A program made the position numbers and the translations under genes. A stretch of 64,000 nucleotides of DNA from Haliclystus octoradiatus (Eukaryota > Cnidaria > Staurozoa > Stauromedusae > Haliclystidae). Below the pieces are notes generated by a model. The model did not search any database. It was not told the DNA's origin and worked only from the letters and a program-made list of their open reading frames with translations. The DNA lies in the NCBI GenBank assembly GCA_916610825.1, contig OU744449.1:2678001-2742000 (forward strand), given 5' to 3'. Of this stretch, positions 1 to 59,040 are shown piece after piece; the first letter of the stretch is position 1; every line of letters starts with the position of its first letter.

Positions 1-3000
1 ATGATTCAGCATTACAAAATAAAGATACGGAAATAACGGAATTGAATAATTCATTAAGTAATCTTTCAGTGACCTCATCGTCATTAACAGAATCTACAAA
101 AGAAGAACTTAACAAAATCGTGGAGCAGCACCAAGCAGCACTTGAAAATGTCCAAACTGAATCAAATAAAAAAATTGAAAAGCAAGACGAATTATTATGC
201 GAAAAAGAAGTACACATTTCGCAACTGACCACGGAAATTGCTGAATGTAAAGAAAAGATGGAAGAAATGATTCTTGAAAAAGTTGGTGCTCTTAACATGT
301 TGAAAGAAAATCTAGAAGATGATCATGCTACTGAAATGAAAACGATACAAGCAGAACACAACCAAAAATTAGAAACAGTTGAAAAACGATTATCTGCACG
401 AGTGGAAGAAAAAGAATTTGAATACAGCTCGCGTGTGAAACAAGTTGTAAAGGAATTCCAGCAGAAGTTAAACGAGAAGGATAGAGAAGTTCAAGACGCA
501 ACTGAACATGCAATGGATAGTAGTCAAAAGGAGGAGAGGAAAATAATTGAAGAATATAACGAACAGATAATTGAATTTAAACGTGAAATGAGAATGAGAG
601 AAAACGATATGGTTGCGTTGAGGAATGAAACAGAGCAACAAGTTACATCAATGCAAGCAACACTTGACCAACGAGAAGAAGAACATCGATTAAAATCAGA
701 ACAAATAGAACAAGATTATCATACACGATTAGATGAAATAACAAAGAAACATGAATTAGAAATCGAATCGTCCACACAGCAGCATAAACAAGATTTACGC
801 GATGCAGAAGAACGACGTCAAAATGAAATATGTGAGATTGAAAAAGCGTATGTGGCACAAATCGATGCATTAAAGGAAGAACATCATTTGGATAAATCTG
901 CTATGGAAAAGAAACTTAAAACGCAGATGAAAAAGAATCAGTTGGAAATGAAAAAATTGTTAGGTGAAAAAGGAAAAGGCTTACATCCTGGGAAATTAAT
1001 GGATGAATCAAACGATAGGATATCGCCTGTACCTAGTAATCATAGTGTAAGTATTTTGAATGATACATCATGCTTGTTTTTTCAATTGTAACATGTAGAT
1101 GAATAAAGGGTTGCCAGGGTTACTCGTAAAAATTGAAAGACGCTCAGGAAGTATGGAAAGCACTCTTCTCGGAGGTTCGAGCTTTCAACACTCCATTTGT
1201 GTCTTCCAACATTCTTTGTGTAGTAAATATAATAATATAATATGAGGTGAACACATGTAGCGAGAGTGCTCAATGTTTGTTAGGACAGAGCATAATATAG
1301 AATAAACAGAAAGATAGGGTAAAAACCTTTTCCGTTACTTGGAGTTTCACGCGACTACTTTGCGTTCATCAGACGATTTACCTCTGATGATCAGTAAACC
1401 GTCTGTTGAACGCAAAGTAAATGCGTGAAACTCCGAGTAACGGAAAAGGCTTTTGCCTCATCTTTGTGTCTATTGTGTAGTAAATCTGAATACAGTACAA
1501 ACATTTGTAAGCATGTGGTAACCCTTTTCTAAATTAAAATGTCCTCCGAAATAATTGCATGTAAAATATCTTTTCACTTAAACTATCAATTTTCTTTTTT
1601 TGCAGTCGGATAATGAATCAGATCAACCAGATATAATTTCATTGAAGGTATAACACACTGTACATATGTTATTATCCAATCGTCGTTTTTATTCTTTATC
1701 TGTAATCAATGCTATCAATGTGCCAATGTTATGTAACCTTTTTTCTAACCGTCATAAAAATATAATTTTAGTTTTGTTGAAGAAAACCAAATGGGATCCC
1801 ATTGTGACCCACGAATTGATTGTGTTGATATTTGACTGATAGAAATTTGTACTGTACTACTTGTTAAGATTGAAACTTGAGGCCTCAAACCATTAACCCA
1901 ACCCTGTTTACGGTATCTATCAAGTGATCCTTGCAACAGTATTTACTTGCGGTAGTTTACCTTCAATTAAAAATATCTACAATGAAACCTGTATATAACA
2001 ACCAGCTTTGAGGGATAGATAAATGGACCGTTATAGACAGGTGGCCTTTATATTCAGGGTTGATTCAATAGAAAATACTATTTTAGACATTGCAAGAGTG
2101 ACCACTATAGACATGTGACTGCTATATAGAGGTGACCGTTAAAACTGGTTTGACTGTACATAGCCATATTTGTCTTTTTAAGTGTTGGCTTTATGAAACT
2201 ATTTTTAATTGTACAAATTTCAGATGCAATTAGCTGCGATGACAAAAGAGTTATCAGCTTTAAAAGAACGTGAACATCATCTGTCGTTACAGGTAGATTA
2301 ATAATAATTGGATCAGGCAATTAATCATCATAATCATCATTATCATCATTTATTCAGAAATACCTGTATACAATATACATAAACTGATAACAGTATTAAT
2401 TAAGAAATTCTTGTCACAAGACTAACTAATCCATGAATGAAATTACTTATAAAATCTAATTTTATATTTTGTTTGATGTTACCTGCACTCTCTAACCTTC
2501 TGTAGCGAGATTATTGTTAATTAAAAGGTGAACAGTGAACATGTCCAGGATTATTATTGATTTGAATTATATATATTGTTATTTTTGTTCAATAGCTTGT
2601 GCAGTATTCAATTTTTTGTCAACATTTTTCCTCTGAAAAGAATTCATGATCTAGTGACATTGATCCACATTGTATAGACATCCGATAGAGTAGAACATTT
2701 TTCCGACCTTTTGTTGTGTCTGTATTCTTTGTTCTAGGTTATATTTGTGTTTTGCCTTATTGATCCATTGAATATCATAATTTATGCCTGTTACCGTACA
2801 ATACCATCATCTAAGCGGGTTTTAACTGATATTAAAAAATTTAACTGATATTTGACGCACAAGAGAAAACCATAAGGAATTAGAAAATCCTGAGCCACTG
2901 CTGCAAGTGATATCTTCCTTTGAGTCTTCTCCAGAAGTGACTCAAGTGCGCCGAATATCAATAGCTCATAGGAGATTGTGCGCCAATTACATTGTATGAA

Positions 3001-5477
3001 AACTTCCACAAATTTTATAAACATTGCATGACCATCTTATTCATAAGTTAATGTTTTGACAATTCCTGATGAAATTGGAAACTTTATTTGTGATATCAAG
3101 TTCCAATTTTAAAATTGATTGGGTTTTCGAATGTAATTTTGTTTAATGTTAATATGGTGATTTGACGTCATAACTCTAAACCAATCAGATTGATTGAATC
3201 TTTTCGTTATAATACAAAACTGATTGAATGAAACCATTTTGTATTGTTCTATTAACAGCAATCGTCCCGTCCAGCAACTCTTGATTTAGATACACCTGAA
3301 CACAGCGTTTCATTTAGTGGATTACCATCAAACATGGAATCACCAGAACCAACACAATTTGAGGTAGGAACAGATTTTAAATAATAGCAATATAATAATC
3401 TCTATCTCAATCTTATTTTGAATGTTATACATACATAGTTTATGACTGACGTACGTCTCTTAAACACCTCTTATTTTATTTTGTGTTGTTTTTAATGAGG
3501 GAGTTATCAATTGATTTTAATAAATATAATTGATGGGAAATTACAATTGATAATTACGAAAAATGCTTGTGCAGGAGCACTGACAAGGAATCGAACCAGT
3601 GCACAAAATGTTTAACTCATTTATCAAAAGCATTTGTAATGGGAAGACAGAAAGGAATTAAAAAAGATTGATAGAGTCACATATAATCTGTACTTGTAAT
3701 ATATTTTAGCACAAAGCGGCCTTCGGGATGCTAAAATAGTCTGTATTACATAAAAAGTATGTGGAAAATTTATAATATTAATACAGTGAAACCTGTATAT
3801 AACAGCCAGCTAAGAGAGGTAGATAAATTGACCACTATAAACAGGTGGCCTTTATATACAGGTTTGATTCAATAGAAAATATTATTTTAGACACTGCAAG
3901 AGTGACCACTATAGACAGGTGACCGTTATAACAGGTTTGACTGTATTATAATACTAATAGACAGAGAATCAGACCGTCATATTTGCTACTTCAAGTTTTA
4001 CGCCGGAGCGATCATCAGGCAATAATCTATTACTTGAATAGATGATCGCTATGGCGTGAAGCTAGAAGTAGCAAATATGATTGTCTGATTCTCTGACTAC
4101 TATTATTATTCAAGCTCTGCTATTTATTTATTGCATTGAGCCCTATGTCTGATCAGTAAGACAACTTTTTACAATATTACAATATTAATATTAGTAGTAT
4201 AAAGGTACTTATGTAATCTTTGCTGTTTTAATAGTGCTCAATGCCATAAAGGCAGAGCTGTTTAATAATAAATAAACGAAGAAATCAGACATTCATATTT
4301 TCAAATATGAATGTCTGATTTTTGTGTTTATTTATTATTAAATATTAATTGTACTTTAGTAGCATAGTAGCATCATCCTTCTTCATTTTCAATAATACCA
4401 ATTCTTTTTTCCTCAGTATATGAAGAAAATACTTTTTGAATTTATGATGGGAAGACAAAAGACAGTAAGTTATCTTTCCATACAGACATAAACCCAATAA
4501 TGCTAGGGTGTTAGGTTAGGCGTATGCAATCTTTTTAGATCTCAGGTGATTATATGAGGTCCCCTGTAGAAAACAGTTCAGAAGTTCCTGAATTAGTTCA
4601 TGAATGTTTAATAGCCCAATTTTCATGAAGACTTTTTCATGAACTGTTGGGCTTTTGTTTGGCTCAATCCAGACATGACTATGTGTATGATAAATCAACT
4701 ACTATGTGTAAGATATCAACTGATAATTATAACATACATGTTTTAGTAATTCAACAATGTAATATAGTGTGTTCATCGACGGCATCATAAAACATTCTTA
4801 TCTAATTCTATCAACAGCAGAATGTTATTAACAGGCTAGCAAAAATAATCATAATGAAACGAGGCACTACATTGTACATGTACTTTGCATGGCATCAGAT
4901 CTACCCTTATCAGGTCTTCTGGCACTGCCACTTTATTGATGATCACCTAATGACCAAGTACCTGGTCAAAATCATTGCTATGTTAAATTGCTTTGAACAT
5001 GATGTACAGTGAGACCTGTGTATATCAGCCATCTACACGAGAGGTAGATAAATTATCCACTATAGACAGGTGACCTATATATAGAGGTTTGATTCAATAG
5101 AAAAAAACTTAGACATTGCAAGAGTGACCACTATAGACAGGTGGTCGCTGTATAGAGGTGACCGTTATAACAAGTTTGACTGTAGTGGGTTTTACTGTAT
5201 TGTGATTCGGTATTAACATCCAAAATACAACTTTTTCATGGTAATCTTGTCTTTTACTTAATTTATTTTAATTCTAAATTTTGAATTTGTTTTGTTTGTT
5301 CAGCAAATGGCAAAAGTCCTGACAGCTATCGCCCAGTTTAGTCCGACACAAACGAAGCAAGTTCTTGAAAAACTACAACAATCTGAAACTGTGGTAAAAT
5401 TTATTCATCTTAATCTTAAATTCTTCACAGTCTATTATACTCTATCATTCTGGTATCGAAGCAAGATAGACAGATAA
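1..5477 (+). CDS. GOLGA4: Golgin-245 / GOLGA4 homologue, 3' part of gene (GRIP-domain golgin)
   Basis: Partial gene running in from the left edge. Coding exons read 1-1046 (open from position 3), 1606-1647, 2224-2292, 3259-3363, 4417-4464 and 5304 onward. The first five junctions lie between whole codons and have GT donors and AG acceptors. The first exon is about 330 residues of charged coiled coil rich in E, K, Q and R. The short exons end in a GRIP domain: FEYMKKILFEFMMGR, then MAKVLTAIAQFSP, closely resembling the GOLGA4 C-terminus (FEYLRKVLFEYMMGR). GRIP domains bind Arl1-GTP and tether golgins to the trans-Golgi, where the coiled coil captures transport vesicles. The end is uncertain: the last exon may read through to a stop at 5475-5477 or splice at a GTAAAA after 5393. 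I show the read-through. Family assignment is firm; the exact end is not. Confidence 0.88.
1263..1482. repeat. Inverted-repeat element with two hammerhead-like arms (copy 1)
   Basis: Lies in GOLGA4 intron 1. Two arms of about 70 nt (about 1309-1378 and 1399-1478) are near-perfect inverted copies. Each arm reads as a hammerhead core. On the minus strand: CTGATGA at 1367-1373, stem II ACGC/GCGT, GAAAC, then GTA at 1337-1339, with TCGT before the core pairing ACGG after it. The plus arm (1398-1443) has CTGTTGA. The left flank (1263-1293) carries the family tail GTGCTCAATG ... CAGAGC. Read by eye. Confidence 0.65.
1978..2159. mobile_element. Pogo/mariner-like MITE, copy A
   Basis: About 180 bp in GOLGA4 intron 2. 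Ends are imperfect inverted repeats of TACAGTNAAACCTGT, and the interior shares GACAGGTGGCC and CATTGCAAGAGTGACCACTA with the copies at 3782 and 5005. Inverted repeats starting CAGT next to TA fit pogo/Tc1-mariner non-autonomous elements. No transposase is present. Confidence 0.65.
2323..2362 (-). mobile_element. 3' tail of a LINE, minus orientation
   Basis: A degenerate (TCA)n run followed by TTTATTCAGAA, the reverse complement of the TTCTGAATAAATGATGATG tail that ends the LINE at 58101-58660. Only the tail remains. Confidence 0.4.
3782..3945. mobile_element. Pogo/mariner-like MITE, copy B
   Basis: Best preserved of three related copies. It begins TACAGTGAAACCTGT and ends ACAGGTTTGACTGTA, an inverted repeat of 15 bp with one mismatch. 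It lies in GOLGA4 intron 4. The terminal TA may be the duplicated target. Confidence 0.7.
3958..4150. repeat. Inverted-repeat element with hammerhead-like core (copy 2)
   Basis: Arms about 3966-4024 and 4040-4100 pair with each other. On the minus strand the left arm reads TTGC-CTGATGA, stem II around CGC/GCG, TAAAAC (GAAAC with one change), then GTA-GCAA, whose GCAA can pair with TTGC as stem I. The right arm is more decayed (TAGATGA, TGAAGC). The tail AGCTCTGC ... TTGCATTGAGC follows at 4113-4141. It sits in GOLGA4 intron 4. Confidence 0.6.
4232..4345. repeat. Inverted-repeat element, truncated copy 3
   Basis: A hairpin at 4262-4342 whose arms meet near ATTTTCAAATATG, preceded by the family tail in reverse orientation (GTGCTCAATGCC ... 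GGCAGAGCTG, 4233-4260). The ribozyme core is missing; only the distal arm and tail remain. It lies in GOLGA4 intron 4 next to copy 2. Confidence 0.6.
4555..4655. repeat. Dispersed TTCATGAAC-type repeat
   Basis: Short block containing AGTTCATGAATG, AATTTTCATGAA and TTTCATGAACTG. Related blocks occur at about 8030-8110, 16900-17610 and 54850-54945. The motif is itself palindromic (GTTCATGAAC). It lies in GOLGA4 intron 5. Class unknown. Confidence 0.5.
5005..5184. mobile_element. Pogo/mariner-like MITE, copy C
   Basis: Begins TACAGTGAGACCTGT and ends CAAGTTTGACTGTA. Interior shares GACAGGTG and GCAAGAGTGACCACTATAG with copies A and B. It lies in GOLGA4 intron 5. Confidence 0.65.
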
Positions 5478-8112: not shown

Positions 8113-8288
8113 TTGGCAGGGTTAATCATCATCAGCATGATATTTGCATATTATCCATCATCTTTCATTTTACAATCGTACCCCACATTTTGACTAATGT
8201 ATATCTAAAATTAAATGTTAGATTAAATTAAAAATTAAATTTAAATACATGTTATCCTTATTATTAGATATTATCTAATAGCAAAAAA

Positions 8289-8425
8289 TAGTGCTCAATG
8301 TCATTTGACAGAGCTAAATATAATAAAAGGAGTCAAAGACTACACATTCATAATTGTTACTAATAGTTTCATGAAACTATTAGTAACAATTATGAATGTG
8401 TAATCTTTGACTCCTTTTATTATGT
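8289..8425. repeat. Inverted-repeat element with truncated ribozyme-like centre (copy 4)
   Basis: Near-perfect hairpin, arms about 8319-8371 and 8372-8424. The right arm begins CATGAAAC-TATTA-GTA-ACAA, which matches the downstream half of the hammerhead core (GAAAC, 5-nt loop, GTA, stem I strand); CTGATGA and stem II are absent. The left flank has GTGCTCAATG ... ACAGAGCT, the family tail. Confidence 0.6.
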
Positions 8426-8741
8426 TATCCTTATTATCTATATTGTGAACACTGAGTCCTTTGTTTGCATTATGCACTAGTCAATTAATAGCCTAGCCCC
8501 TAAAACTTCAATTGCACTCCACGTTAAAACCCAGCCTATCCGAATTATGGTACATGTTTCTAATCCAAACCTAGTTGAAAGACTTTGATTGCAGAAAGAA
8601 AACACACCTTGTGAAAACCCTATTTTGAAGTGTTTGGAATACAGTCCTACACAATATGTTTTTCAGTCTGAACTTCGTAACAGGATACTAGGATGGGCTA
8701 TTGAGCGCTGCTCTTGCTGAAATAATTACAGGTCTTTGATT

Positions 8742-22871: not shown

Positions 22872-23819
22872 ATTAGAATATTGATTTTTACGTGGCTATA
22901 TATGTGACGTAGCTGAGTGCTTAAGCTTTTTAACAACATCTGGTACTATATATTGGTTTACATGGTAGCTCCGTCATTATGTAGTTATCAGTAGCTTTCT
23001 TCCAAGACTGTCTATGCAAATCAAGGTATCTTTCGAAAATCAAACAATTTTGTTGTTGTTGTTGTGAGTACACAGCAGAATATTTCAATTGGCTATGCCC
23101 ATTAGAATATATAAATGTCGAAACAAATCATTCAATTCTATTTAATTTCAAGATAAAGGATAGCGACTGAAAATAAAATCTTGAAATGTTTTTCGAAGAA
23201 ACTTTTACTGATTCTATTTAATTCCTTGTAAAAATGACTTTTAAAATAACCACATTTTCATGGGGATTTTGCCTTCGAACACCTTAGAAACAACTAGTTT
23301 TTAATGATATACTGTATGTTCATAGACTTTCATGGCCGGTTCACAAGCGGTCAAAACTGCTAAATCTCGTTTTCATATGCACAATCGAAGATATTAATTA
23401 ATAATATTCATACCAGAAATTGTTTTTCCGTTTTCTTCTGTTATAGATAATTACACATACCCGTTTAATTCTTACCAATTATTGTGTCAATATTAATTGC
23501 CTATGGTACATCTGTCAACATTATTTTATTTTTAAGAATATTTAAAAATAAATTGGTCAGCTCCTACAGTACTTTAGTTTACTCAAAGGATAAGTTCGTT
23601 AACATTAAATTATTCGCAATCCCGTTGGGTTTTGGACTTACAGCAAAGTAAGCTTATTAGTCATATGAACAGTTACTATAACCGTGTATGTCGTAATATT
23701 ATTTCATCATCATTAATAACCACTTAATGAGTTAATATTCAATTGAAGCGTATACATTGCTGCTTTTCATCGAGCTTTCGACAAAGGTGGAGATACGTAG
23801 CTTATAGTGTATGGTTATC
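22872..23819. other. Intergenic stretch, no gene seen
   Basis: AT-rich, with no open frame worth calling and no clear repeat structure. Confidence 0.4.
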
Positions 23820-24045
23820 TATAACGATGGTGGCTGAATCAAAGAAAACGCATTCTTAATTACTGTCACTTAAGTTTCATACCGATGCGATCATCAGAGG
23901 AGTTTTTACTCAAAAAAGCTAAAAAAATATTAAAACTTCCTATGGAAAAAAAAGTTAAAAAGCTAAGCATGCGTCTTCTTTGACTCAGTATACTATTCTT
24001 TGACCATCGTTATATATTACAGCTTGGTTACAGCTCTGCCAATCT
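23820..24045. repeat. Inverted-repeat element with hammerhead-like core (copy 5, decayed)
   Basis: On the minus strand 23862-23910 reads CTGATGATCGCATCGG then ATGAAACTTAAGTGACAG: both core boxes are present, but stem II is weak and GTG replaces GTA. The outer arm GAATCAAAGAAAAC.CATTC matches copy 6 at 32945, and GTCTTCTTTGACTCAG at the right is its inverse. The tail CAGCTCTGCCAAT is at 24030-24043. Confidence 0.5.
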
Positions 24046-31500: not shown

Positions 31501-34500
31501 ATAGTGTGTGTGTGTATAATTTTATTTCGATTCGTAACCAAAATGAGCAAATGCTCGTTTATACATTGATACGAATTTAAAAGTAAGTTATTAATTATAA
31601 TATTGTAAATTAGTAGAAATAATGATAAGGATAATAGTATTAATAATATAATACAATTTTTATTTTTATTTTATTATTTTGTTATTTTTGTTATTTTTTT
31701 TATTTTTTTCGTTTTTTTTTCGTCTTCCTTGAATTTGAAGGAATTAATTTGATTCTTTTAATTCTCTTATAGTATAAAGCATTTTCTGCCAAATATGGTC
31801 ATTTGGCAATGAAGAAGATTTATGAGCACGCACAAGAAACCATTTCAATGGTTGATAAGGTGGATATTCTTACTTACGCTATTAAATTTATACAAGGAAA
31901 ACTTCAAATCTTCCAATATTAAATATTTTGTCATGTCCAAAACCGACTGATGCTATATGCTACATCCTTTGTGTAGTGCTTAGGGCTTTGGACCACTATT
32001 GGTTTGGCGTCAGGAAGGCTGTTACAGTCATATAATGCACAAACGCTTCAAAATTACTAATCAACAAACCAGCCACCCCGGTGTAAAAAAACCCAGGCGA
32101 TTTGTGATGAGATGATTAAAAACAATTTTATTCTTTGAATTCTATAGTTCTATCGCAAAATCAGGTTCAGAACTATACTAACCGCTGTTGAAGTATTCAC
32201 AAGTTATCAGAAATTTGGAAATGGAGCAAATAGTCGTGAATTACATGCTAACGTTGCAGCATATGTGAAAACTTTGAAACAAAAACATAAATTCGACACT
32301 GCTATATATGCATTGTGAGTATAACCAGCTTTCTTCATATGATTATCTGCTACTTGATTCTGATAATTGTTTTATTCTAGAAAAGGGTTACCACATATTG
32401 TTGTCGTGTTTGTGTTCATATTTATTACACTTTGAAATGGTGTAAAAGACTTGGGAAGTGTTGAAAGTATTCGTATCTTCCGCCACTTCCATTGTAGTAA
32501 ATGAATACAAACACGGCAAAGTGTGTGGTAACCCTTCGTTGATGGATGGAGATAAGCTTTACTAATAGCTTATGATGATGATGATGATGATTGGTCATCT
32601 ATATGTATAGAGTTATTACTTTAATATGGCAGACCTAAGGGTATGTCGATTCAAAGAGAACCTATTGAGCTATATATAATCCCAAAATGAATTAGGGGCA
32701 AGATAGCATTCTTACAAGTGAAGTTTTACTTAAACCGGATCATATTTCCATGATATTTTGAGAGTAAGCAAATATTTTCTAGCTACGTGGAGAAGGTGTG
32801 CATATGTTCTTGTAAAGTAAAACAGATATTTTTCAATGAAATATTTCTGATTTTGAGTAGGATTCACTGTATACCAAAATCTTATAGGCCTCTTATGCTG
32901 AACATGAAACTAATCCATTTCTTTGTATATCTTTTGATACATCAGTATGGTGACTGAGTCAAAGAAAACACATTCTTAATTAAACACAGAAATTGAGAAT
33001 GTGTTTTCTTTGACTCAGTCTCCATCCTTGTGTATTACAGCTCTGCCGATGTCTATTAATTGGTATTGAGCACTGTCACATCTGACGATAGATAAATCTA
33101 TCTTTATTATTCTATATCTTTTGATATTAATAGTGAAGATGACTTGTTTGGAGCAGCAGGTACAGCATCTCATAAGTTATGTGATACATACTGGGGAAGT
33201 CCATTCATTATCTCAAAAGTAAGTTTTCAATTTTCCCTTTCGATTGAATTTGCATTTTTGATATTTCCTCTCATTTTTAGCTTTTCATACAGCCGTGTCA
33301 GTGACGTATAGTCCAGAGAGATTTCTACTATCCAGTAGTGACGCTATATAGGAATTAGGACGGAATTAGGAATATGAAACCAACTATCCAGCTTGAATTT
33401 TCTTGAATTACGAAATCACTCCATTTTGCTTCAGTTAAAAAAAACGCACCAGCATTCCAAGATAGATACCCGAAAATTAGGTCTTAAATCACTTTATACC
33501 AATTAGAATCACCATCCGTATATTTTTAAAAATATAAATCAATCACAGGTATAGAAATAAAATTTACATAATTACATACTCTTAATTTTTACATATTATA
33601 TATATTTGATTTTAATTTTTGAAACAGGACAAACGTTGATAACAGCAATTTGCTGAAGTTTGTATCCTGTATAAATATTCGGTATAAATATAAATAAATA
33701 ATTAAATAAATTAGATTGTACAACATTTTTGGAAGCGTACATGTGTTACATCTACGTATTTCGTCGTAATAAAGTAGGAAGAATATAGAAACAACCCTTT
33801 TTCTGTTTTAGGCCAACGGTGATGCAAGATTGGACGCAAGACATATTTATAATATCTTAACACACGAAATAGCTCATCAACTCCATTCCGGTCATAACTA
33901 CGGTACATTTACCTTGTGTTGATTTGAATTATAAATGGGATGCAATGCCAATGTGTATATAATCTCATATATAAAGTAATTGTGTGGCAAAACATCAATC
34001 TGAGTGCTCAATGCTAAAAGCAGACCAATATAAATAGTAGATCAAAGATCACGAGTTTACTCCATTACTCTGAGTTTCGCGTAAAAAACGCTCTTCAGAC
34101 AGTTCATTGAAATTTGAAAATTGAAATTTCAATAAACCGTCTGAAGAGCATCTTTACGCAAGCTCAGAGTGACGGAGTGAACTCGTGATCTTTGATCTAC
34201 TATTTAATCACATGTATATGTACACATTACTATAATCACTATTATTATTACTACTATTACTATAGTTTTGGCAATCACCTTCTTGGCCATTTATTCCAAT
34301 TATTCCATCAAAACAATTTCGCTTGAACGAATTGAGCAACCTTCATAGAATCATACATGCATTACCGTCAGTAAGAACTCTTTCTAATTTGTTCATTCTT
34401 TACATTTAAGACTCACCTCATACTTGCCCATCTTACCATTTATTTGGTGGAAGATGTACCCTCGGTGGAAATGAGTAAGTAGTATGACGTCACTTGTCAT

Positions 34501-45340: not shown

Positions 45341-45347
45341 ACTTCAG

Positions 45348-48300
45348 TTAACAAATATTCAGATCGCTTCTTCTTATTTTGATTTCAGTTTTTGACAATG
45401 AGTGATGTTGTCCTGTCATTGATACCCAAACGATTCCTTTTCCAAATCTAACATCGCCATATTTACCATTGAGATTAGCTTGGTGACATTTTTTATACCA
45501 CCAAGCACCGATGTATAGATTTGCACAATTGTAAATGCTGTTAATGTCATTATCTCTGTCTTCTGTCGTGAACATTTGATTGTTATGGTAAGTCATTGAA
45601 TCCCCATCATTTCCTGTTGAGGAAACATCAAACATCTATTTAAAGGGGCAAAATTGACCGGCGACCGCTGCGAGCATAAGTTGAATTTATGCTTTGCGTA
45701 ATTCAACCGTCTCGCTTTGAAACAATTGTTATACGCAGGCCTAACTTGTAATAAAATTCATGTCAACAATGAACATTGTGTTATAATAATAAGCGTGCAC
45801 GTGATCCTAAGTGCGTAGCGCCTGCCGGTCATTTTTGCTCCTTTAATTTGTGTATATAGTTTTGTGTATGTTACTTTTTCATCGTGTCTTTCGTTCTCCA
45901 AAACTAATCAACTCTCATTCTGATGATCTGTGGAACTCGTAAATAGTTGGAGAGAACTTCGACGACAACCGCATAATGACATCCAGGATTTTACTCATTC
46001 AACATCATAATAAAATAGTATACTTGATTATAATTATAATTGATTGCATGTAACACATTATTAGCCATACTCAAACTGATGATATATGTGAGACGTGGCA
46101 TCGTTTGTCCAAAGAAAATATTGATATACTTTCATGAAATCCAAGTACGGAAAAGATTTATAGGTTACAAAGAAGAACAAGCAGACAAATGGACAAACGC
46201 AATATATACAAGCGCCTAAGAGATCGTAAACATATTCCAAATAAACTGAGCATCTGAAAATACTAGAAAATTTGTACAACTGTCATTAGACATTAGAGAC
46301 GGTGGGTGTAAAATAGTATTTATGATAATTTAAAATTTAATATTTAAGATAGTATTTATTTGCAAGATAATAAATAATGAAGCAAAAGTTGCACTTGCAC
46401 GGACCGTCGGACGAATGTGTACATTCCCATCAAAATCATATACAGTATGGCTTGGAAGTTTCAATTCTAGCCTATTCATGCTTTGCATAGATACTAAATA
46501 TGAAGCTTATCATTGGAGAAATAATAAATATCGTATATATGAATCAAAAGTTCATACAGAATATTCTGTACAATGCCGTGAAGTATTCGTCATGTCAACC
46601 CGGAAATTCTAGATTAAATCAATCTGGTCTGTGTGGTCGGCGAGTCGGCGGGTCGGTATTTTACACCCACCGCATTAGAGACTAATTGATGTTGCTCAAT
46701 ATGTATATGGCTTTTTGTATACACATTGAAAAGTAATAACGTCTTCGTCATCGAGGAAATTCGTTTATATAAACCTGATCGGAGTCAACGTGGATTGTTA
46801 GATAATTTCAGATTTCGACGAAGAATATATATATGTTTGTAGATTTGATTTCCTCTTTCAAGTAAAATTGCGATTTTTGCGCGGCTTGCGTCATAGTTTT
46901 TGAAAATTTCTGATTAGAAGTTTATACCTATTGATTGTCAAAAATTATTTTATTTTCTTGTTGGCTTCTAGACTATTTCAATATTTCAACCCAATTTTGT
47001 TGTACTGTGAAGTACATTCAATTAGTTAAGTACTTATAAAAGAGGTATAACTCGTAAATCAAGAGGGAAATTAAATTCAACTACTGTTATTCATGACCAA
47101 ACTTAACCTGATCATTATGATCTACTGTGAGAAATATACTGGAATCAAACAATAGAATTTCACATCATAATGATTTAAACCATAGGCTGTAGTTTTCTTA
47201 TTTCATGTTCAGTGGCACGTACGTGTAATGGCGTGTATTTTACTTACTTTTTTCTCTTCGGATTTTTACAAATAAAGGATTTTAATTCGGTAACAAAATG
47301 TGATTTTTCAATGTTACAAAGGAATTGAGGCGGCAAATTATTGATTTCCCACACCGAAAGTGGCGACCACGCCAGGACACCTCTGAAGCGGGCTCTGGAG
47401 AAATTAGACTGGACACAGCTTCCTAATACTAACAAACACAAGAAGAAATACGTTATCGTATATAGACAAACACAGAGACATGGCAGAAGAATGATTTAGG
47501 AAAGAAATGCAACTGATAACACTCAAATTTGAAATGGTAATGAGCAACTTAGACACACTAGACAATGAAGACATTAAGCCCGGCAATTCACAACCATTTG
47601 TGCAGCAAAATATGTAAACTAGAAGGCATTCAGGAACAAGGGATGTCGGAATTACTAGACAACAACACAAGCTTGGAAGACGTTCGTGGATGGAAGCAGT
47701 CAAATGATGAAGGTATTGACAAACTGAGAAGCATGAGGTTTGAAGTGAAAACAAGAATTCAAAGCCTTCAAAATGAAGAATTTAAAGACAAGCATGAAAA
47801 AGAAATTGAAATTCATCGCAAAATAGCCAAAGAAAAACGCAAACAAATGGAAATAGAACAAAACTGGTATAGAGAGAAAGTACAAATAGACAGAGAACAA
47901 ACAAGAAGAACTGGTGGATCAAGCAACACAGCTACGCGCACACAAGCAGTAAAACTACAAAAGTACACCATTACCCCCATTTGACGGTGATTACAAAGAC
48001 TGGATGAGACTCTGGAATCAGTTCTCTGTCGAAGTTGATGGGTCCAACATATCAGAAATTAGTAATTTAATTATTTATTGGAATTGGTGGAAAGGAACAC
48101 TCATGCATATATTGTGACGCTACTTATCATTCTGCAACAAAATGTACGAAGGTGTTAGATGCAGCTAAACGAAAAGAAATACTAAAGGAAAAACGAGCAT
48201 GCTTCAACTGTGCTACTCCTGGTCATGGGGTGGCAAAATGTAAGTCAAGATCATGTTATTACTGTCAACAGAGACATCATTCATCCATATGTACTCAAAT

Positions 48301-51300
48301 ATCATCAACTATCGGGGAAGTCGGCAACAGTTTGATGGAAAAGGGAATGTCAGGCAATTCGACGACAACTCAAATAATCCATCCAACTCTACACGCAAAA
48401 CTTGACAACCAAACCGTTCGAATAATGATTGATACCGGCTCAACTAGTTCCTATATATGCACTGACGTAATAACAATACTTAGATTAAAATCAACAAAGA
48501 AAGAAGAACGAAAAATAGAACAAATGTATGGTATGGTTAACAAAAATGTTTAGCTGTACGATGTTGTATTGGAATCGTTGGAGATTGAAAACTTCCAGGT
48601 AAAGATCAAATGCATCAATGCTGAGAGAGATGAGCTAACTTATATACAAAATCCGGACATCTCAACTCTAAAGAAGGAAAATAAAAGAATTCAGCGGTTA
48701 AAATTCAGGGAGGAAGAAACAACAGCAGCTAAACTGCCAGTACATATAAATATGGGTGTGGCAGACTACCAGTGGATAAGGTCAACAGAGCAACCAATTC
48801 TAGGTCAAAACCGAGACAAAGATCCGGGAGCAGAACTCACTATGTTAAGATGGACACTATTTGGAGGTTCATCATGTGACAATAACGGTCATGAGCAGCA
48901 ATACTTCTTAACATCAGGGCAGGACGAATTTGAGAAATTGTGTTCAAGCGATGTTCTTGGTCTAAAAGACACAATCCATGATTACAAGGGAGACTTTACT
49001 CATGATGAATACAAACGTAATATAGCGATGACCACAGAAGGGTTTTACGAAGCCAAACTGCCATGGAAACCAGAACAAGTGATTCTACCGACAAACAAGG
49101 AAATGTCCCATGCAAGATTAAATTTAAGTTCTTCTAAATTGGGATTTACAGAATCGATGGAAGAGTAAAAGGCTACACATCCACATTTCTACCTAGACAG
49201 TGACACAGCAAAATCGGAAGGCTTGTCGCAGAAGATTGTCACAATGTTACAGCACATGGGGGAGTTGCATCTACAATCAGTAAAATCAGAGAATGATATT
49301 GGATACCAAAAGTTAGAACCATGGTAAAAGGAATCGTACGAAAATGCAACCTGTGTAAGATATTAAATGCAAAACAACTGAAAGCACATCAAATATTAAA
49401 ACATCAAATAAAATGGAAATTTAACCTCTCTAGAGCTCCTTGGTGGGGTGGTTTCTCCAAAATGATGGTTGAGATGATGGAGGCGAGCATGGAAAAATCC
49501 ATAGGACAAGAACTACTAACCTTCAGTGAACTAGAAGAGGTATCACTTGATGTGGAATGCTTCCTAAACAACCGCCCACTGGTATACCAAGGAGAAGAAT
49601 TCGACAAACCAGTATTGACACCAAATTTTCTACTGTGAGGAACTCCTGCTGTAAGTTTACAAGAAGACATAGAGAAACTGGCGAAAAAGAGAAAGCAATT
49701 AAACGGATTATTTACATACAAAGATGCAAAAAGATGCTAAAAGAACGCTGGCTAAATGAATACATTCACTCCCTAGAAGAACGACATAAGAAGATTGACG
49801 GTAATGCGACACATCCATCTATTGAAGATATTGTGCTGATAAAAGACAACAGCAAGATAAAGTTCAACTGGAGGATAGGGAGATTCATGGGCGTAATTAC
49901 TGTACAAGATCAAATTGTTAGGGGGCTAAAAATACGCACTGGAGACAGTTTCATCATCGAAAGACCTTTACAGCTAGCTTGTCTGTGATTGGGAAATAGG
50001 AGGTGCACAAAACCAGCAAAAACAAATAGAGAAGAAAACCACACAATCAAAAGGCGGCAACGCAAGATCAAGTCGAAAGGCCAAACTTGAGGCTGAAGAT
50101 CGCATAGTTGGAATCGGACTCATAGAAGAAGAATTTTGATTAACACAATTTCATTAAAGCTCTCACTTTAATGGGGGGAGTGTGTCAGAAATTATGGAAT
50201 AATAAACAATAGAATTTCACATCATAAAATGATTTAAACAATAGCCTGTAGTTTTCTTAGTTCAAGTTCAGTGGCACGTACGTGTAATGAGGTGTATTTT
50301 ACTTACTTTTTTCTCTTCGGATTTTTACAAATAAAGGATTTTAAATCGATAACAAAATGTGATTTTTTGGTGTTACAAGGGAATTAACGTGGCAAACTAT
50401 TGATTTCCACACTGCAACAAAAGTTAACCACGTGCCAGAGCCATAACCGTAAGTCACGTGGTATCACAGATTGAGCCTGATAAACTGTAATTTACCTTTG
50501 TATCCCTTGAATGTCAGACGATAGTTATCCGATTCACTCGCAATAACTGCCTCGTAGTACTCTGCATATCGATGAACATCGCCATCCCACAAATCAAATC
50601 TTAGGGTTGTGTTTGTATCTTTCATCAATTCATGAGCGTTGTCCAATCCAAGCCAAAATTCATCATTCAAATTTCCAAATCCTTTTTTGTATGACTGCCA
50701 ATCACGGAAGAAATCTACACTACCATCGAATCTTCTTTGCAATAGGGTCCACCCTAAATTGATAAAAGCAACATATACGATTATAAATTATCACCGGATG
50801 CCTCTTAATCATTTTTTAAATTCTTATACTTGAAAATCAGAGAGTGATGCTCATATACGATCTGGATCAAACAGATTTTGAAATCTATTTTGATCTTGAA
50901 CTCCCGCAAATAATGGCTTTACATAATTGGACTTATTGAACTGGATTTCAACTGATACTTTATTCATTTTTCTTTTTCAGTTTTTCCTGATAATGTACAG
51001 CAAATATTACTAATGAATTTGAACTACCGCTAGGGATGCATGTACCGATGCATCAAGAGATATGCATTTGTTCAATTTGCAAATTTTGCAATGCCATTCA
51101 CTAATAACAATGCTTTGTTTCCTCTCTTACTTTCAAATGAATCAAATGTTTTTGACCTTTTGATATAGACCGAGTGCCACAGAACTAAAACGGCAGGTTT
51201 CTCCGGGCAACTTGGATATCACATAAAAGTGTTCATAAAAATATGCTGAACAATTACCTATTCCTTGTTTTGGTCGAATTTTATTGTGGATCTCACCAGA

Positions 51301-53215
51301 GATGAATTGATAAATCATTTCACGGTCAGAGCCCTCTTAATTCATACATTTTGTGTTTTCGTCATGCTTCTATGAATTCGCAAAATCTTGGGAGAAGAAA
51401 AGAATCAAAGACCGTGAAGTTCACATCCAGCATTTTCTCAAAATGATAAGAAGGCTTTGACCGTGAATCATGAAATATAACTTGGAATTTTGAAGGGCTT
51501 ACAATAGAATTTAATTAAAACAAGGAATAGGTAATTGTTCAGAATATTTTTATGAACACTTTTATGTGCTTTTCAAATTGCCCGGAGAAACCTGCCGTAG
51601 TGCCGTTTTAGTTCTGTGGCGCTCGGTCTAATAATTTCACTGGCTCGATAGAGACTTTCACTTTTTATCATACCTCCGCGACCTGTGTCCATGTCACAAA
51701 ATGCTTCTATTATTCGATCACTGGAGAGAATCAGGGAGTAGACAGAACTTTTATCATCTTGATATGATTCTTGGACAATAGCAAGACAATCTCTTTGCTG
51801 ATATTTTGGCTAAAAATAAAAACAAAGTTCATCAGATCTGTATTTGATTTACAATGCAGGTGTGGGTGTCTATTTGCATACTTCTGCCGAAAGTTACGAG
51901 GGTAAAATGATCGAGAGAGAAAATATAACATCTCTTTCGTAGAGATTTCAAAACGGAGTATATTGTATTTGATAAAATAAAGGGCAACACGGGGTAAAGG
52001 AGAATTTGATATTATTCTTGTTATGCTAATACGCAATAGCATAACACGAGCTACAAAGATGCAGTTTGAATCCTGGGGGTAACTCCCATACTGCTGCTAT
52101 ACGGGGGCGTGCCAAATTTTGGATCAATATTCCAGCTGAGAGATATACAATTTGGGTAGGAAATTTTAGAATATTAAACGTTTTGGGTCCAATTTCGATT
52201 TTATAGAGAATTTGTGAAAAACTGAATTTGAAGGCTAAAAAGTAAAAAATGGATTTGAATTTTTAATAAAATGGAACATCTCCGCATAGATTCTATACGG
52301 AAGTACCCTCCCTGGACTTTTTGGGTAGCATTTTCAAGCTTTTAAAACAATTTGAGGAGCTTTTAAAAGAATTTTGGGTACTTCATATTTTTTGAAAGTG
52401 GCATTCACCCATCCATGAGTTTGAGTCTTGTATTTTGTTTGGAAAACATCATGCTGCTGTTTTGATAAATTAGATTCAATGCTATAGTTATACAAACAGA
52501 AGCAAGTTTTGAGGTTCTAACGATTTAACATTGGGCTTTATCATATCTATCTATCCTCTATCATTTGAGGGGATGACGTACGGATGTGGCTTCTACAACT
52601 GATGTTAAGATGTCTTATCTTTTCATTATTACCAACATTGGCCTAGTATATCTTAATATTAAAAGAAGCATCTAGCAAGGTATAACATTACCTTGAAAAT
52701 TGGGTGACGCATATATAATACAGAAGCATGATTATCATTGAAAGTTTAGTTATAATTGAACCTGTTACAATGCGCGTTGGTTCTCGAGTATAATTAAAGT
52801 GTATATTTATTTTAAGGCTGGATTGATTTTATTTAAAATACAAAATAGAATGATGATATCGGATGAGGGCTATACTTACAATAACTACTTGGAAAAAGGT
52901 TGCGTTTTCTGTTGCTTGCATTCTTGTGACACCTGAAACTTTACTGAAAATCTCACAGATAAATCTATCTGAGCCATTGGAAATCGAAATGAGGTTGAAG
53001 GATTGGCAGTTGTTCAGATTTTCACAGTTCATAGTACAGTAAAGAGAATCATTGAGTAGCATACGTTGCAATGGTGAACCAATTCTTTGAAAACCATTGA
53101 TATTCTTGTATACTCTTCCCGTTGTTGTTAAATTTGAGCATCTTGAATCAACAATTGAAAAGATAGATGCAAAAATAAATAATCGGATAGCTATTTCGAT
53201 TTTTCTTTTTTCCAT
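45348..53215 (-). CDS. Secreted PAN/Apple + fibrinogen-related domain (FReD) protein
   Basis: Four exons on the minus strand: 53215-52880, 51809-51674, 50753-50496 and 45613-45348, joined in phases 0, 1, 1; 996 nt, 331 residues. The signal peptide runs from MEKRKIEIAIRLF to about SRCS. Residues about 25-112 hold a PAN/Apple-like fold with MNCENLNNCQSFNL and a late cysteine. The FReD follows: RDCLAI, CDMDTGRGGWTLLQRR, FWLGLDNAHEL, then DGDSM, a calcium-site-like EDRDNDINSIYNC and GAWWYKKCHQANLNGKY, ending KIRRSDLNIC. FReD lectins such as ficolins and tachylectins bind acetylated sugars and often act in innate immunity; here a PAN domain replaces the usual collagen or coiled-coil stalk, so oligomerisation would need another route. 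The third intron (4.9 kb) is filled by mobile elements. Domain calls are firm; ligand is unknown. Confidence 0.9.
45644..45842. mobile_element. 199-bp MITE inserted at TTAA, next to a splice acceptor
   Basis: TTAA on both sides (45640-45643 and 45843-45846). Ends AGGGGCAAAATTGACCGGCG and the inverse GCCGGTCATTTTTGCTCCT, with GCTGCGAGC / GTAGCGCC further in. It is the longer relative of 39351-39434. It lies 27-30 bases upstream, in gene direction, of the last FReD exon. Confidence 0.65.
46300..46672. mobile_element. Mutator-like MITE, 373 bp, 9-bp TSD
   Basis: Exact 9-bp duplications CATTAGAGA at 46291-46299 and 46673-46681. Ends CGGTGGGTGTAAAATA and TATTTTACACCCACCG are inverted. The short frames inside show no transposase. 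It lies in FReD intron 3. Confidence 0.75.
47126..47355 (+). repeat. 5' LTR of the BEL/Pao element
   Basis: Begins TGTGAGAAATATA; shares GGCACGTACGTGTAATG, TTTTTCTCTTCGGATTTTT and ACAAATAAAGGATTTTAA with the 3' copy. The end is placed just before the primer site and is uncertain by a few bases. Several substitutions and small indels separate the LTRs. Confidence 0.8.
47565..48113 (+). pseudogene. BEL/Pao gag remnant
   Basis: A frame of 139 codons ends in a charged coiled coil (HEKEIEIHRKIAKEKRKQ) and then breaks. In the next frame the text continues as PFDGDYKDWMRLWNQFSVEVD, a typical gag motif. The region between this and the zinc knuckles is deleted. Confidence 0.7.
48105..48553 (+). pseudogene. 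BEL/Pao zinc-knuckle and aspartic protease remnant
   Basis: Zinc-knuckle cysteines and histidines (CFNCATPGHGVAKC, then CYYCQQRHHSSIC) precede an aspartic protease site, IMIDTGSTSSY, with the DTG triad. A stop follows at 48551-48553, and the protease is cut short. Confidence 0.8.
48569..49168 (+). pseudogene. BEL/Pao peptidase-region remnant
   Basis: KLPVHINMGVADYQWI and LTMLRWTLFGG match the protease-to-RT linker region of BEL/Pao polyproteins. The C-terminal ~60 residues (YKRNIAMTTEGFYEAKLPW) resemble the segment just before reverse transcriptase. The reverse transcriptase and RNase H that should follow are missing. Confidence 0.7.
49170..49988 (+). pseudogene. BEL/Pao integrase and C-terminal domain remnant
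   Basis: Across frameshifts: a His/Cys zinc-binding part (HNVTAHGGV, then RKCNLCKILN), an integrase-core end (APWWGGFSKMMVEMMEAS, FLNNRPL), and the BEL-specific C-terminal domain (WLNEYIHSLEERHK, WRIGRFMGVI, RPLQLACL). The first catalytic aspartates of the core are absent. Confidence 0.8.
50183..50415 (+). repeat. 3' LTR of the BEL/Pao element
   Basis: Begins TGTCAGAAATTATGG after the polypurine tract. Direct repeat of 47126-47355. The end lies near TTTCCACAC; no clean target duplication was found. Confidence 0.8.
51168..51628. mobile_element. DNA transposon-derived element with ~125-bp TIRs and TA flanks
   Basis: GACCGAGTGCCACAGAACTA ... AAACGGCAGGTTTCTCCGGG at the left; the inverse (CCCGGAGAAACCTGCCG, TTAGTTCTGTGGCGCTCGGTC) at the right. 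The arms also share GAACAATTACCTATTCCTTG. TA borders both ends (51166-51167, 51629-51630). No transposase. It lies in FReD intron 2, about 45 bases beyond the exon 2 splice donor. Confidence 0.75.
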
Positions 53216-53681: not shown

Positions 53682-53972
53682 AGTAAAAACGTCGAGACTA
53701 TCCCTCAAAAGCGCACGATGACGAGCTTAACATTTTGCCACCCTGTTGGCAGATCTACATGATTATGAGGTTATAGATATCAATTTACACAACATTTGAT
53801 TCGAGCTAAAACGCATCATACATCGAGAAATTGAATTTGTCGGTAAATTTCTTTTGACCCAGTGGAAATCAATATCCCATTATTCCCATTCCCTAGTACC
53901 CATGTAAGCTCATGCAGTGCGATCACTGACTTGACGTAAGCATAACACCAGACATCTTTGCATAATTATGCT

Positions 53973-54064
53973 TAGCCTGCGTGCAGACCCAAATCTTTTT
54001 TTTATGATTAGTAGGCACCTACCTACTAATCATAAAAAAAAGATTTGGGTCTGCGCGCAGGCTA
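53973..54064. mobile_element. Mutator-like foldback MITE, 92 bp, 9-bp TSD
   Basis: Exact 9-bp duplications AATTATGCT at 53964-53972 and 54065-54073. Ends TAGCCTGCGTGCAGACCCAA and its inverse; arms of 44 bp meet at a tiny loop. It has the same terminus as the 632-bp element at 10148, so it is a deletion derivative or short member of that family. Confidence 0.85.
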
Positions 54065-54094
54065 AATTATGCTAGGCTTTTATGATTTTTTCAG

Positions 54095-55623: not shown

Positions 55624-55635
55624 TATCTCAAAAAT

Positions 55636-57758
55636 TTAATAAAACTCTGGTTTAGTATGTTCAATTATACATAAATTACATCTACGTCTTAAATATGCAT
55701 AAGTTTCAAATGAAAATTCACAATCTTGTATATTTAAATATTTTAATGAAGTACAAAGATGTGTAGCTAATTTACGTAAGCCAGCATCAGTAATTTGATG
55801 ACAAGATTTAATACTTAAACGTCTTAATTGATGTGAATTAACAGCTAGATAATTTAATGAACGATCAGTTATTAAATCACATTTACCAATATCTAGAGAA
55901 CGTAATCGATGACAATTTTGTGCCATTTTAGATACACCTGTATCACTAATATCGTTGCACATATGTGCATTAAAATAACGTAATTTTCGACAATAACGTG
56001 ATATATATTTTAAACTATAATCAGTTATTGAACATTTTGCAACACTTATATATCTTAAATCATTACATCGCTTAACTAATGCTTTAATACCATTATCATG
56101 TATATTATAACAATCACATAGACTAATTTCACGTAATGAATTACAATGATTACTTATTTCTATAATACTTTGATCTGTTATTTGTGTACATCGACGTAAA
56201 TATAAAAATTTTAAATAACTACATGAACGTGATACTAATTGTAATAATACATCATCAAAGGACAAACAATCACTCATATCTAGATATTGTAATTGAAAAA
56301 ATGAAGCATTTTCACCAAATGATAACCCATTTTCAAGAACACATTCTAAACTATCCACACCTTGACAACCAGGAAATGCGAGACTTTCCAAATTAGGACA
56401 GTTTGCTAACATTCCAGCGATACCATCACCAGTAATTGCAGAACAATATGATATATTTAATTTTTGTAATTCAGGACAACGTCTTGAGATTATCGTTAAT
56501 GAATTATCTGTTAATGTTGAACATGATGCAGCTGTTATTGAACGAACTTCTAAACATGCATATGGTGATATATATGATAAACGTTCTAATATATCCATAA
56601 ATATATGATCAGCATTGTATTGTGTAACACCAGTAATATCAATATCTGTCCATAATTCAATACTCCATGCTATACGATACCATAATTGACATGTTGTAGA
56701 TGCTTTACATAAATCACGTGTTGATAAAAATGTAAATACATGAAGTAGTAAATCATCACTTAGAGAATGGATAGTAGATGTTGAACATGATGAATCTAAT
56801 ACTAAATCGGGATAGCATTCAATACTAGGTCGCCTTGTTACTGTATGGGGTATCTTATATGGGTGTGGTTTTATATTACTTTCTTGGGGCGGGGTACTTG
56901 AATACAACGCATCATCATAAGGATATCTATCAATCATTAATTCACCAAATTCATGTTCAATAGATTTTAATTGTTGGTTACGATGAATACGCAAAGGAGT
57001 TAATTGGCTTCCCTTCTTTTTTAATGGGGTATGTTTCCCTATTCCAGTTTTTGATGGGGAATATCCTTTTTGTTGATAATAACTATCAATTGATGATGTA
57101 TTACCAGAGAATGTTTGGTCAGAGTCAATACCAGTTGTATCTGCAGAACAACTTGAATAACTACGAGTTGAATCCGATGAATGGATTGAATCTTGCATAT
57201 CGTAATAGAGATGATCCGATCGGAATTTCTCTAATTGATAATCTGTATTTGGTGATGTACAGTCGTCTGTTGGATATGATAAATATTCTGGTGAATCCAA
57301 AGTTTCTATAACTTCGTTATTTATATGTGGCAGCGAGAGTTGTTGTGATGAGTCCACGTATTCTAATTTTTCTGTATGTGGATGTGGAACATTCACGTCT
57401 TCTTTAGCAGAATCATTTTGTATCTCAAACGTGTTTATGTTTTCATCTTGATGTAAACAATCGTTTCCATTAATTTGCTTACAACTCTCACATGGATCTC
57501 CTTCGACACATTGATTACATGAGGTTTGATGATTAACTGAAAAATGAACACGTTTTTGTGGTGATCTTAATCCACGGCCTTGGAAATTTCGTACACCTTT
57601 TGATAATATTCCATTATTGTCTTCACTTTCGTTTTTACTATTCTCAGATTTCTCATCATCATCGTGTAGGTTTTTAATTTCACAGTCATCTAGATGACTT
57701 GGTGCAGTAAGATCTGTATCATTTAAACTGACACTCACTTTGACAGCTGGCGATTTAC
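55636..57758 (-). CDS. FBXL7: F-box/LRR protein FBXL7, 3' exon (5' end missing)
   Basis: Substrate-receptor subunit of an SCF ubiquitin ligase. One exon of 706 codons plus stop; an acceptor (TTTTCACAG) at its upstream edge joins GT AAA TCG, so a short first exon with phase 1 is expected, as in vertebrate FBXL7 (MGANNGK...); it is not found here. Residues 1 to about 325 are acidic, Ser/Asn/Asp-rich and disordered, much longer than the human N-terminal part. The F-box is at about 328-372 (LSDDLLLHVFTFLSTRDLC). About eleven leucine-rich repeats of the C.L..L....C..ITD type follow (LYLRRCTQITDQ, LSIKSCHQITDAG, LNIQDCEFSFE). The end CNLCIIEHTKPEFY matches vertebrate CKRCVIEHTNPAFF, which fixes the identity. 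Confidence 0.93.
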
Positions 57759-58100
57759 CTGTGAAAATAAATGAAATCGATGAAATGAAAGTAATTTGGG
57801 GTGAGAGTACTGTAACCTTTTAATGACATCATAGATTATATTACAAATAATATCAGTTACAAAAACTATATCACAACTTCTCAACTCAACTTGTAAGACC
57901 TGGCTCATATAGTCTGTACATACGGCTCGTTATGTACATGTGCAGACCCTATTCCTGCTAAGAACGCCTTTAGATCGAATACATGACTAAATTGGTTGAG
58001 TCAGACCATAGTCAGACGCCGTTCTAAGAATTCCATGCATGAATTAAAACCTAATGGAGTCGTCCCGAACATGTTCCGAACTGGAGTCGATCTTTGATGT
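57759..58100. other. Intron or 5' flank of FBXL7, no gene seen
   Basis: Sequence immediately upstream of the large FBXL7 exon, with no readable exon. The missing first exon lies further upstream or outside the window. Confidence 0.35.
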
Positions 58101-58660: not shown

Positions 58661-58959
58661 CTGTTGAAAAGAAATCGTTGAAGAAATCATGGAGTAATTT
58701 TTATTTCGATCTGGATTTTTTTTTTGGTGTAAACTGTCATCGTGCTGCTATCAAAGGCGAATTTTCGGCCAAATCTGGCAGAGAAAAACAACGAAACTCG
58801 ATCTAGCTTTATGATGTAAAACCAAGAACGAATTTTTATTTCTAGTAAAGTAACGTATGAAACTATTACGCGATATTCTTATTAATTTAATAAAGATCAG
58901 TAGCCTGAAACGCATTTTTATTTTATCAAGGTAGGAGCGCAAACCATATAATATATATA

Positions 58960-59040
58960 TAATTGAAAATAGTCAAAAATTAGACATTCATTTTGCTACT
59001 TAAACTTTCACGCCTAAGCGGTCATCAGGCAATTTATTAA
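58960..59040 (-). repeat. Hammerhead-like repeat, single arm (copy 8)
   Basis: Minus strand, 58991-59035: TTGC, CTGATGA, CCGCTTAGGCG with a CGC/GCG stem, TGAAAG (GAAAC with one change), TTTAA, GTA, GCAA. TTGC and GCAA pair as stem I. Beyond it, AATGAATGTCTAATTTTTGACTA matches the outer arm of other family members. The second inverted arm is missing. Confidence 0.55.

Follow-up and report, generated by a model that had tools for sequence, protein, structure and literature searches.

A 64,000-nucleotide (nt) stretch of the genome of the staurozoan Haliclystus octoradiatus (assembly GCA_916610825.1, contig OU744449.1, positions 2,678,001 to 2,742,000; hereafter the window) holds eight places, E1 to E8, of a dispersed family of short palindromes, many with all or part of a hammerhead ribozyme motif. 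With a probability of about 0.8, these palindromes represent insertions, heavily truncated at the 5' end, of a Penelope-like retroelement (PLE), with the inversion made separately at each insertion. What is retained would be the 3' end of the element: a pseudo-long terminal repeat (pLTR) containing a minimal type I hammerhead, together with a terminal hairpin (GCTCTG..CATTGAGCACT) and a short tail ending in AT. The window and 100 kb on each side of it (264 kb, C5) were taken whole, and 80 kb were added from C1, C2 and C4 of the same genome; the motif search gave 25 places in the former and one in the latter. Ten loci, L046-L055, were picked from about 100 listed terminal-hairpin places, by way of an every-fifth subset of 20, for their differing hairpin types and therefore not at random.

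When oriented with the hairpin 3', a short copy consists of an inverted arm, the turn, a direct arm that includes the whole hammerhead or part of it together with the 3' flank of the motif, the terminal hairpin and a tail. Six palindromes of the window carry this second small hairpin on one side only, as 5'-GCTCTG..CATTGAGCACT-3' with at most two changes, and a seventh copy, E5, has only its first half. Where the cleavage site can be read, it lies 39-57 nt from the terminal hairpin. The features of the copies are as follows, in window positions.

1216..1228, no strand: E1, left putative target-site duplication, TTGTGTAGTAAAT, exact 13 bp repeat of 1473-1485.
1229..1472, minus: E1 body, with tail, terminal hairpin 1265-1291 and palindrome (arms 1293-1381 and 1394-1482, 83% complementary, the match extending into the right duplication).
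1332..1376, minus: E1 hammerhead motif, E 5.6e-11.
1399..1443, plus: E1 hammerhead motif of the other strand, core variant CTGTTGA, E 5.9e-12.
1473..1485, no strand: E1, right putative duplication.
3948..4144, plus: E2, with palindrome 3948-4109 (86%) and terminal hairpin 4114-4144 (GCTCTG..CATTGAGCCCT).
3983..4022, minus: E2 hammerhead motif, GAAAC changed to AAAAC, E 4.9e-13.
4034..4074, plus: E2 degraded hammerhead motif of the other strand, E 3.2e-5.
4233..4342, minus: E3, with terminal hairpin 4233-4258 and palindrome 4261-4342, hammerhead core gone.
8249..8264, no strand: E4, left putative target-site duplication, ATGTTATCCTTATTAT, 16 bp.
8265..8421, minus: E4 body, with tail, terminal hairpin 8290-8314 and palindrome 8317-8426, centre of 0 nt, turn at GAAAC.
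8422..8437, no strand: E4, right putative duplication, 16 bp.
23814..24040, plus: E5, decayed, with an inverted arm bearing an antisense hammerhead motif, a replaced centre and a direct arm; GCTCTG of the terminal hairpin kept at about 24033, remainder lost.
23863..23899, minus: E5 degraded hammerhead motif with GTG and a poor stem I, E 0.0024.
32926..32939, no strand: E6, left putative target-site duplication, TATATCTTTTGATA, 14 bp.
32940..33112, plus: E6 body, with palindrome 32937-33035, terminal hairpin 33040-33074 and tail.
33113..33126, no strand: E6, right putative duplication, 14 bp.
34003..34206, minus: E7, with terminal hairpin 34003-34026 (GGTCTG variant) and palindrome 34031-34206.
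34062..34102, minus: E7 hammerhead motif, E 3.1e-10.
34137..34175, plus: E7 degraded hammerhead motif of the other strand, E 4.3e-5.
58985..59035, minus: E8, hammerhead motif 58993-59032 (E 4.5e-10) and tail, next to a TA run.

The E values are those of a covariance model, R1, built from ten hammerheads in the 200 kb flanking the window, none of them inside it, and run unfiltered on both strands. In this family the core is made of CTGANGA, a short stem II, GAAAC, a 1-bp stem III and GTA. A first reading of the window from its letters alone (the sequence-only reading) had described the hammerhead layout at 1333, 3983, 23862, 34061 and 58991, and R1 recovered all five places, four of them with E values of 5e-13 to 5e-10. 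The fifth, at 23862, was found as well, although in the degraded state listed above, and at 58991 the motif is clear but neither a partner arm (by reading) nor a terminal hairpin was found. Two other points of that reading had to be corrected. It confined the motif to one strand, whereas R1 added three matches on opposite strands (1399-1443, 4034-4074 and 34137-34175), so that the palindromes E1, E2 and E7 bear it on both; and it took 8289 for an outer arm only, whereas both arms there retain the 3' half of the hammerhead, GAAAC-TATTA-GTA.

The next-ranked match in the window table had an E value of 0.26. On 280 kb of the same genome, training copies included, R1 gave 29 matches at E<=1, of which 26 were at E<0.05, and on 126 kb of bacterial and viral DNA the best E value was only 2.3. 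A strict hammerhead descriptor matched the window twice, against a mean of 0.05 (maximum 1) in 40 Markov sequences, and a relaxed one matched the 264 kb 25 times, against 0, 0, 0, 0, 0, 0, 1, 1, 0 and 0 times in ten Markov sequences. The letters CTGANGA..GAAAC alone were a weaker signal, with six occurrences in the window against a mean of 0.76, and only three of the six were family places. Outside the family, L022:3156 (53156 in the 264 kb; C5 ~2631156) has a canonical-looking hammerhead whose stem I is 5 bp long, with a longer stem II and GTC as cleavage site; it lies about 200 nt upstream of a fragment that by eye resembles the reverse transcriptase (RT) of a long interspersed nuclear element.

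The core is kept in ten out-of-window sequences, with a single exception, TTGATGA. When the hammerhead structure was imposed on their alignment, 90% of the cells were paired. Stem I was 100% paired in all ten sequences and three of its four pairs changed on both sides, which agrees with the earlier remark that this stem varies together; stem II was 78% paired, its closing pair failing in seven of ten. Six pairs in the whole alignment changed on both sides. The covariation score, 0.364, was reached by none of 500 shuffles, and sliding the partner by 1-3 columns brought it to 0.111 at most; less strikingly, the count of both-sided pair changes was reached by 38 of 500 shuffles, and that of further pair types by 480 of 500. 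The out-of-window model and the compensatory stem changes support the motif as a putative minimal type I hammerhead of the PLE type, which would be expected to cut RNA.

At E<=10, the hammerhead models of Rfam matched neither the window nor 50 kb that contain intact copies; RF00163 had no match genome-wide, and likewise none in 14 control genomes. The sequence-only reading had proposed that the motif be given up if covariance models found nothing and the stems showed no compensatory changes; with Rfam the former was indeed the outcome, but the latter is contradicted by the covariation of stem I. Minimal PLE hammerheads are described as being without helix III or loop-loop contacts (PMC7761336), which plausibly accounts for the Rfam miss.

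Perfect direct repeats bound E1 (13 bp), E4 (16 bp) and E6 (14 bp), and for each of them none of 300 random pairs gave a repeat as long; L050 is likewise flanked by a 14-bp duplication. These repeats look like retroelement target-site duplications, which in the window would be present at three of eight places. Between the boundaries that they set in E1, E4, E6 and L050, the tail after GAGCACT is 25-38 nt long. Two other hallmarks of PLEs, a pLTR inverted at the 5' end and a short 3' tail, were found as well. The copies sort by reading into about six subfamilies, each with its own tail. Genome-wide (261.9 Mb), a strict terminal-hairpin pattern matched 431 + 463 = 894 times and its reversed form 0 times. 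Of the 25 local places only four have the strict form, so the copy number is likely to be several thousand, by extrapolation. In viral and bacterial collections the hairpin had 2 and 15 exact matches, with no palindrome in the next 150 nt on reading, and these were taken as chance.

A link to coding sequence was found. In L023, the same hammerhead, hairpin and tail form a 3' end downstream of broken frames with RT motifs and the C-terminus YIGLTE..H..CRHE; in L019, this 3' end follows the C-terminal coding part, and both L019 and L025 match the C-terminal part of L023. We take the YIG motif, from its letters and its C-terminal position, to be GIY-YIG endonuclease-like. With the joined pieces of L023 as query, 3,879 proteins were found among 7,997 scored candidates. 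The best relative listed has 815 amino acids (aa) and 62% identity over 99% of the query, and the relatives among the 120 entries listed are 428-815 aa long; they include full-length RTs with a PLE-like layout. Ten aligned relatives have in common the RT blocks FDI..FYP, MGS.DGAE and GLYRDDG as well as the C-terminal block. For one relative, P0014, the predicted fold matches reverse transcriptases, with telomerase as the best PDB match (E 9e-5). From the RT, the presumed endonuclease motif, the hammerhead, the tail and the inverted pLTR, we infer that the element is a PLE. The sequence-only reading had offered a PLE or a retrozyme as the home of the motif; the former fits better and the latter worse, because RT fragments lie upstream of the same 3' end, the copies are inverted, not direct, and no tandem array of one unit was seen among the copies displayed, no search aimed at such arrays having been made. 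This link, like the putative target-site duplications and the one-sided terminal hairpin, goes beyond what had been noticed at first.

The inverted arm has a nearly fixed outer end. Of 26 inverted copies, 24 have an arm that begins 0-6 nt from the hairpin (23 in a set of 24, and 44638 at 4 nt), a proportion to be read knowing that the search looks near the hairpin and so favours arms starting there. The turn, in contrast, is variable: its distance from the hairpin ranges from about 33 to 128 nt, or it falls far inside the reading frame, and copies of the same subfamily turn at different points (47448, 46994, 44198 and 134003; 184977 and 237271). The topology is shared by longer copies: 44198 has 262 nt of element separating its arms, 84197 has a 1,232-nt unit, and in 44638 the inverted arm begins 2,208 nt upstream of the hairpin. 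Four of 22 copies (47448, 184977, 44198 and L048) have identical palindrome arms, the others are down to 83% alike, and the 366-nt inverted arm of 84197 is identical to its partner. For 28 of 36 arms, the best or equal-best match was their own partner. Arm mismatches comprised 29 G-T and 21 A-C, with no clear strand bias or sign of maintained pairing in one RNA strand, which fits neutral decay of two DNA arms. Because the outer end is nearly fixed, the turn variable and the arms sometimes identical, the inversion most likely arises anew at each insertion; the simplest reading is that the arms are identical at that moment and decay afterwards.

A number of observations weigh against the assignment to PLE insertions or against an inversion at each of them. 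For E2, E5 and E7 no duplication beyond chance was found, and for E3 and E8 weak AT repeats only. Flank repeats of at least 10 bp occur in 13 of 24 inverted copies versus 16% of mismatched flank pairs, and many are TA/TAT runs. The L023 pieces have no Pfam or NCBIfam match to RT or GIY-YIG other than weak ones far below cut-off, among them an NCBIfam retron RT match at E 0.0025, and four full-length relatives have no relevant Pfam match. The P0014 model has a mean pLDDT (predicted local distance difference test) of 53.6, and many other RTs score close to telomerase. A fold search with the C-terminal piece was non-significant (E 3.5-4.9), its top-probability rows being GIY-YIG (T4 EndoII, and I-TevI twice). 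Two inverted arms begin away from the hairpin, by 24 nt in L053 and 49 nt in 186162, and no inverted arm at the cut-off was found in 17 of 41 hairpin places, although 44638 and 186162 do have one and some others are loose-motif matches. Finally, eight of the 36 arms are nearer another copy of their subfamily than their own partner (both arms of 46994, 133064 and 134003; 237271P; 44638P).

An inversion at each insertion could be produced in the following way. Target-primed reverse transcription would begin at the tail on an AT-rich target, and the element RNA would be copied over a variable, mostly short distance. The complementary DNA (cDNA) would then turn back and be recopied up to the terminal hairpin, so that the outer end of the inverted arm would be fixed while its turn varied, and repair would yield the 13-16 bp duplications. 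The odds for this turn-back, or self-priming, step seem to us about even. It would explain why both arms usually end together, as indicated by loops of 0-26 nt in 19 of 23 copies (the others being 52, 101 and 262 nt, and the mis-set 46994). In a scheme with one step different, priming would come from the two cut strands of the target, at the tail for one and at the AU-rich stretch just before the hairpin for the other, and the two cDNAs would be joined head to head. Such double priming at two AT-rich sites would explain the fixed outer end, which is AT-rich, and many insertions do lie in AT or TA runs; moreover, a PLE protein studied in purified form cuts the two strands of the target and extends both, starting reverse transcription internally (PMC11167929). 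Independent cDNAs should however end independently, which the short loops do not suggest. We lean towards self-priming, and leave double priming a substantial minority chance.

Other origins of the palindrome fit less well. It could have been inherited from a master element that was a palindrome to begin with and multiplied as a unit, as the eight arms nearer another copy would have it; conversion could also keep arms alike. Since turn points vary within a subfamily and several copies have identical arms, we find this improbable. A circular rod of the retrozyme kind was our first idea: the palindrome would be the paired rod of a small circular RNA, cut by the hammerhead and circularised, opened beside the end hairpin and reverse transcribed. 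It was dropped on the variable turns and the hammerhead-less copies. Short copies are largely self-complementary apart from tail and hairpin, three window copies have hammerheads on both strands, and animal retrozyme RNAs, of ~170-400 nt, are highly self-paired (PMC7229834). Yet unit length, like the turn point, varies within a subfamily, loops of 0 nt occur, the arms show no clear G-U excess (29 versus 21) and longer copies extend into the RT gene, so that the rod now appears very improbable. Nor were tandem direct repeats of 150-450 bp, as in retrozymes, found: the displayed copies include no tandem array of one unit, no dedicated tandem search having been run. Among the 25 places in the 264 kb, three pairs of same-strand neighbours are less than 1.5 kb from each other (440, 1185 and 161 bp), and each unites two different subfamilies (by reading). 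Palindromic DNA transposons (miniature inverted-repeat transposable elements, MITEs) with a coincidental resemblance to hammerheads, suggested by short, dispersed palindromes without an intact reading frame, are scarcely credible in view of the one-sided hairpin and tail, the 13-16 bp duplications, the covarying stems and the RT upstream.

The less expected part of the data, to be taken as a lead and not as a result, is that the turns cluster near the two edges of the hammerhead. Statistics were made on 22 values, with 44198, 84197, 44638, 186162 and L042 left out; in the mapping the unit of 46994 was mis-set, this copy being entered by its arm of 117, and the cleavage site of 73631 is doubtful. 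Seven turns fall near the cleavage site, at 33-49 nt from the terminal hairpin (subfamily sites at 39-57 nt), 11 fall around or just 5' of stem I, at 82-102 nt, and none at 58-72 nt. Under a crude uniform null of 25-130 nt, the empty zone had P 0.04 and the upper cluster P 0.001, null and limits having been chosen after the data were seen. In the window, E3 turns about 2 nt 3' of the cleavage site, as placed from a related copy, and E6 near the expected site. The paired direct arm of L051:150 opens with ACAATTATG, which is also what comes after the cleavage site in E4.

These positions could mean that the ribozyme shapes the insertions, near-site turns coming from ribozyme-cut RNA as template. 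Against this, the turns of 108290 and 44198 fall within the ribozyme, 14 nt upstream of the cleavage site, and the pairing of 104134, 5669, L049:507 and L050 begins 29-35 nt upstream, still in the motif, with loops of 17-26 nt. In the seven near-site copies the cleavage site is absent or doubtful and was judged from related copies, and in the 73631 subfamily no hammerhead was found. On these positions, such a role of the ribozyme seems unlikely. If it were real, past hammerhead activity in a PLE would be recorded, as in fossils, by thousands of scattered palindromes.

Inverted pseudo-LTRs, palindromic junctions, tails and minimal hammerheads have all been published for PLEs before. We noticed no paper joining PLE hammerheads to palindromic pLTR copies, which is weak evidence, as the original paper on these hammerheads, reportedly that of Cervera and de la Pena in 2014, was beyond the reach of the search. 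In the rotifer Adineta vaga, self-priming, favoured also here, was inferred for Penelopes with palindromic junctions, on an antisense template (PMC3846280). Those elements have a low copy number, and the word hammerhead is missing from the main text, whereas here many copies are reduced to the pLTR, the hammerhead lies in the arm and the outer boundary is nearly fixed at the terminal hairpin. The hammerheads of PLEs and Terminons are, like ours, minimal, of type I and located in pLTRs, with thousands dispersed in animal genomes, their role and in vivo activity being unknown (PMC7761336); they are described as tandem, whereas ours are in palindromes, some of which bear the motif on both strands. 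Double-hammerhead cleavage has been noted for PLEs (PMC6466107).

The Anolis PLE PAc (PMC11167929) also has a hammerhead at the junction of pLTR and open reading frame (ORF), an internal start of reverse transcription in a stem-loop and AT-rich targets; its hammerhead overlaps the ORF start and its copies are tandem, whereas here the motif is 3' of the ORF and the copies inverted. Metazoan retrozymes (PMC7229834) share with our copies small, non-autonomous units with type I hammerheads; they are described as tandem repeats of 150-450 bp, whereas ours are inverted and linked to an RT gene. The role of PLE hammerheads is called a mystery in a review (PMC7761336), and it is, together with the origin of inverted pLTRs, an open question in the papers cited (PMC3846280, PMC7761336). 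Hundreds to thousands of short, well-bounded copies, some with identical arms, make both questions testable by turn-point counts without an active element. In such genomes, what resembles a microRNA or MITE hairpin may be the end of a PLE; some of the present hairpins do score with Rfam microRNA models, below gathering scores.

By reading, two short MITE-like repeats with inverted ends (ACAGTGAAACCTGTATATAAC.. / ..GGTTTGACTGTA) occupy 1972-2160 and 3778-3956, and E2 directly abuts the latter. Other inverted repeats of the window are a palindrome at 53972-54065 (44-bp arms, 98%), in which neither hammerhead nor terminal hairpin was seen, a repeat with 98-nt arms (90%) at 51190-51598, and nested repeats at 34793-35064 with 49- and 30-nt arms (98% and 93%). 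A cluster of short repeats around TTCATGAAC lies at 16974-17637, with similar repeats in neighbouring stretches. A protein search with the ORF at 17686-20733 gave no match. Retroelement-like gene pieces at 48071-49985 match DUF5641 and, below the Pfam cut-off, aspartyl proteases. Three frames, at 29160-29711, 40697-41188 and 41770-42195, have ricin-B lectin-like matches, that at 40697 below the Pfam cut-off. An F-box/leucine-rich repeat protein, presumably FBXL7-like, is encoded at 55636-57738.

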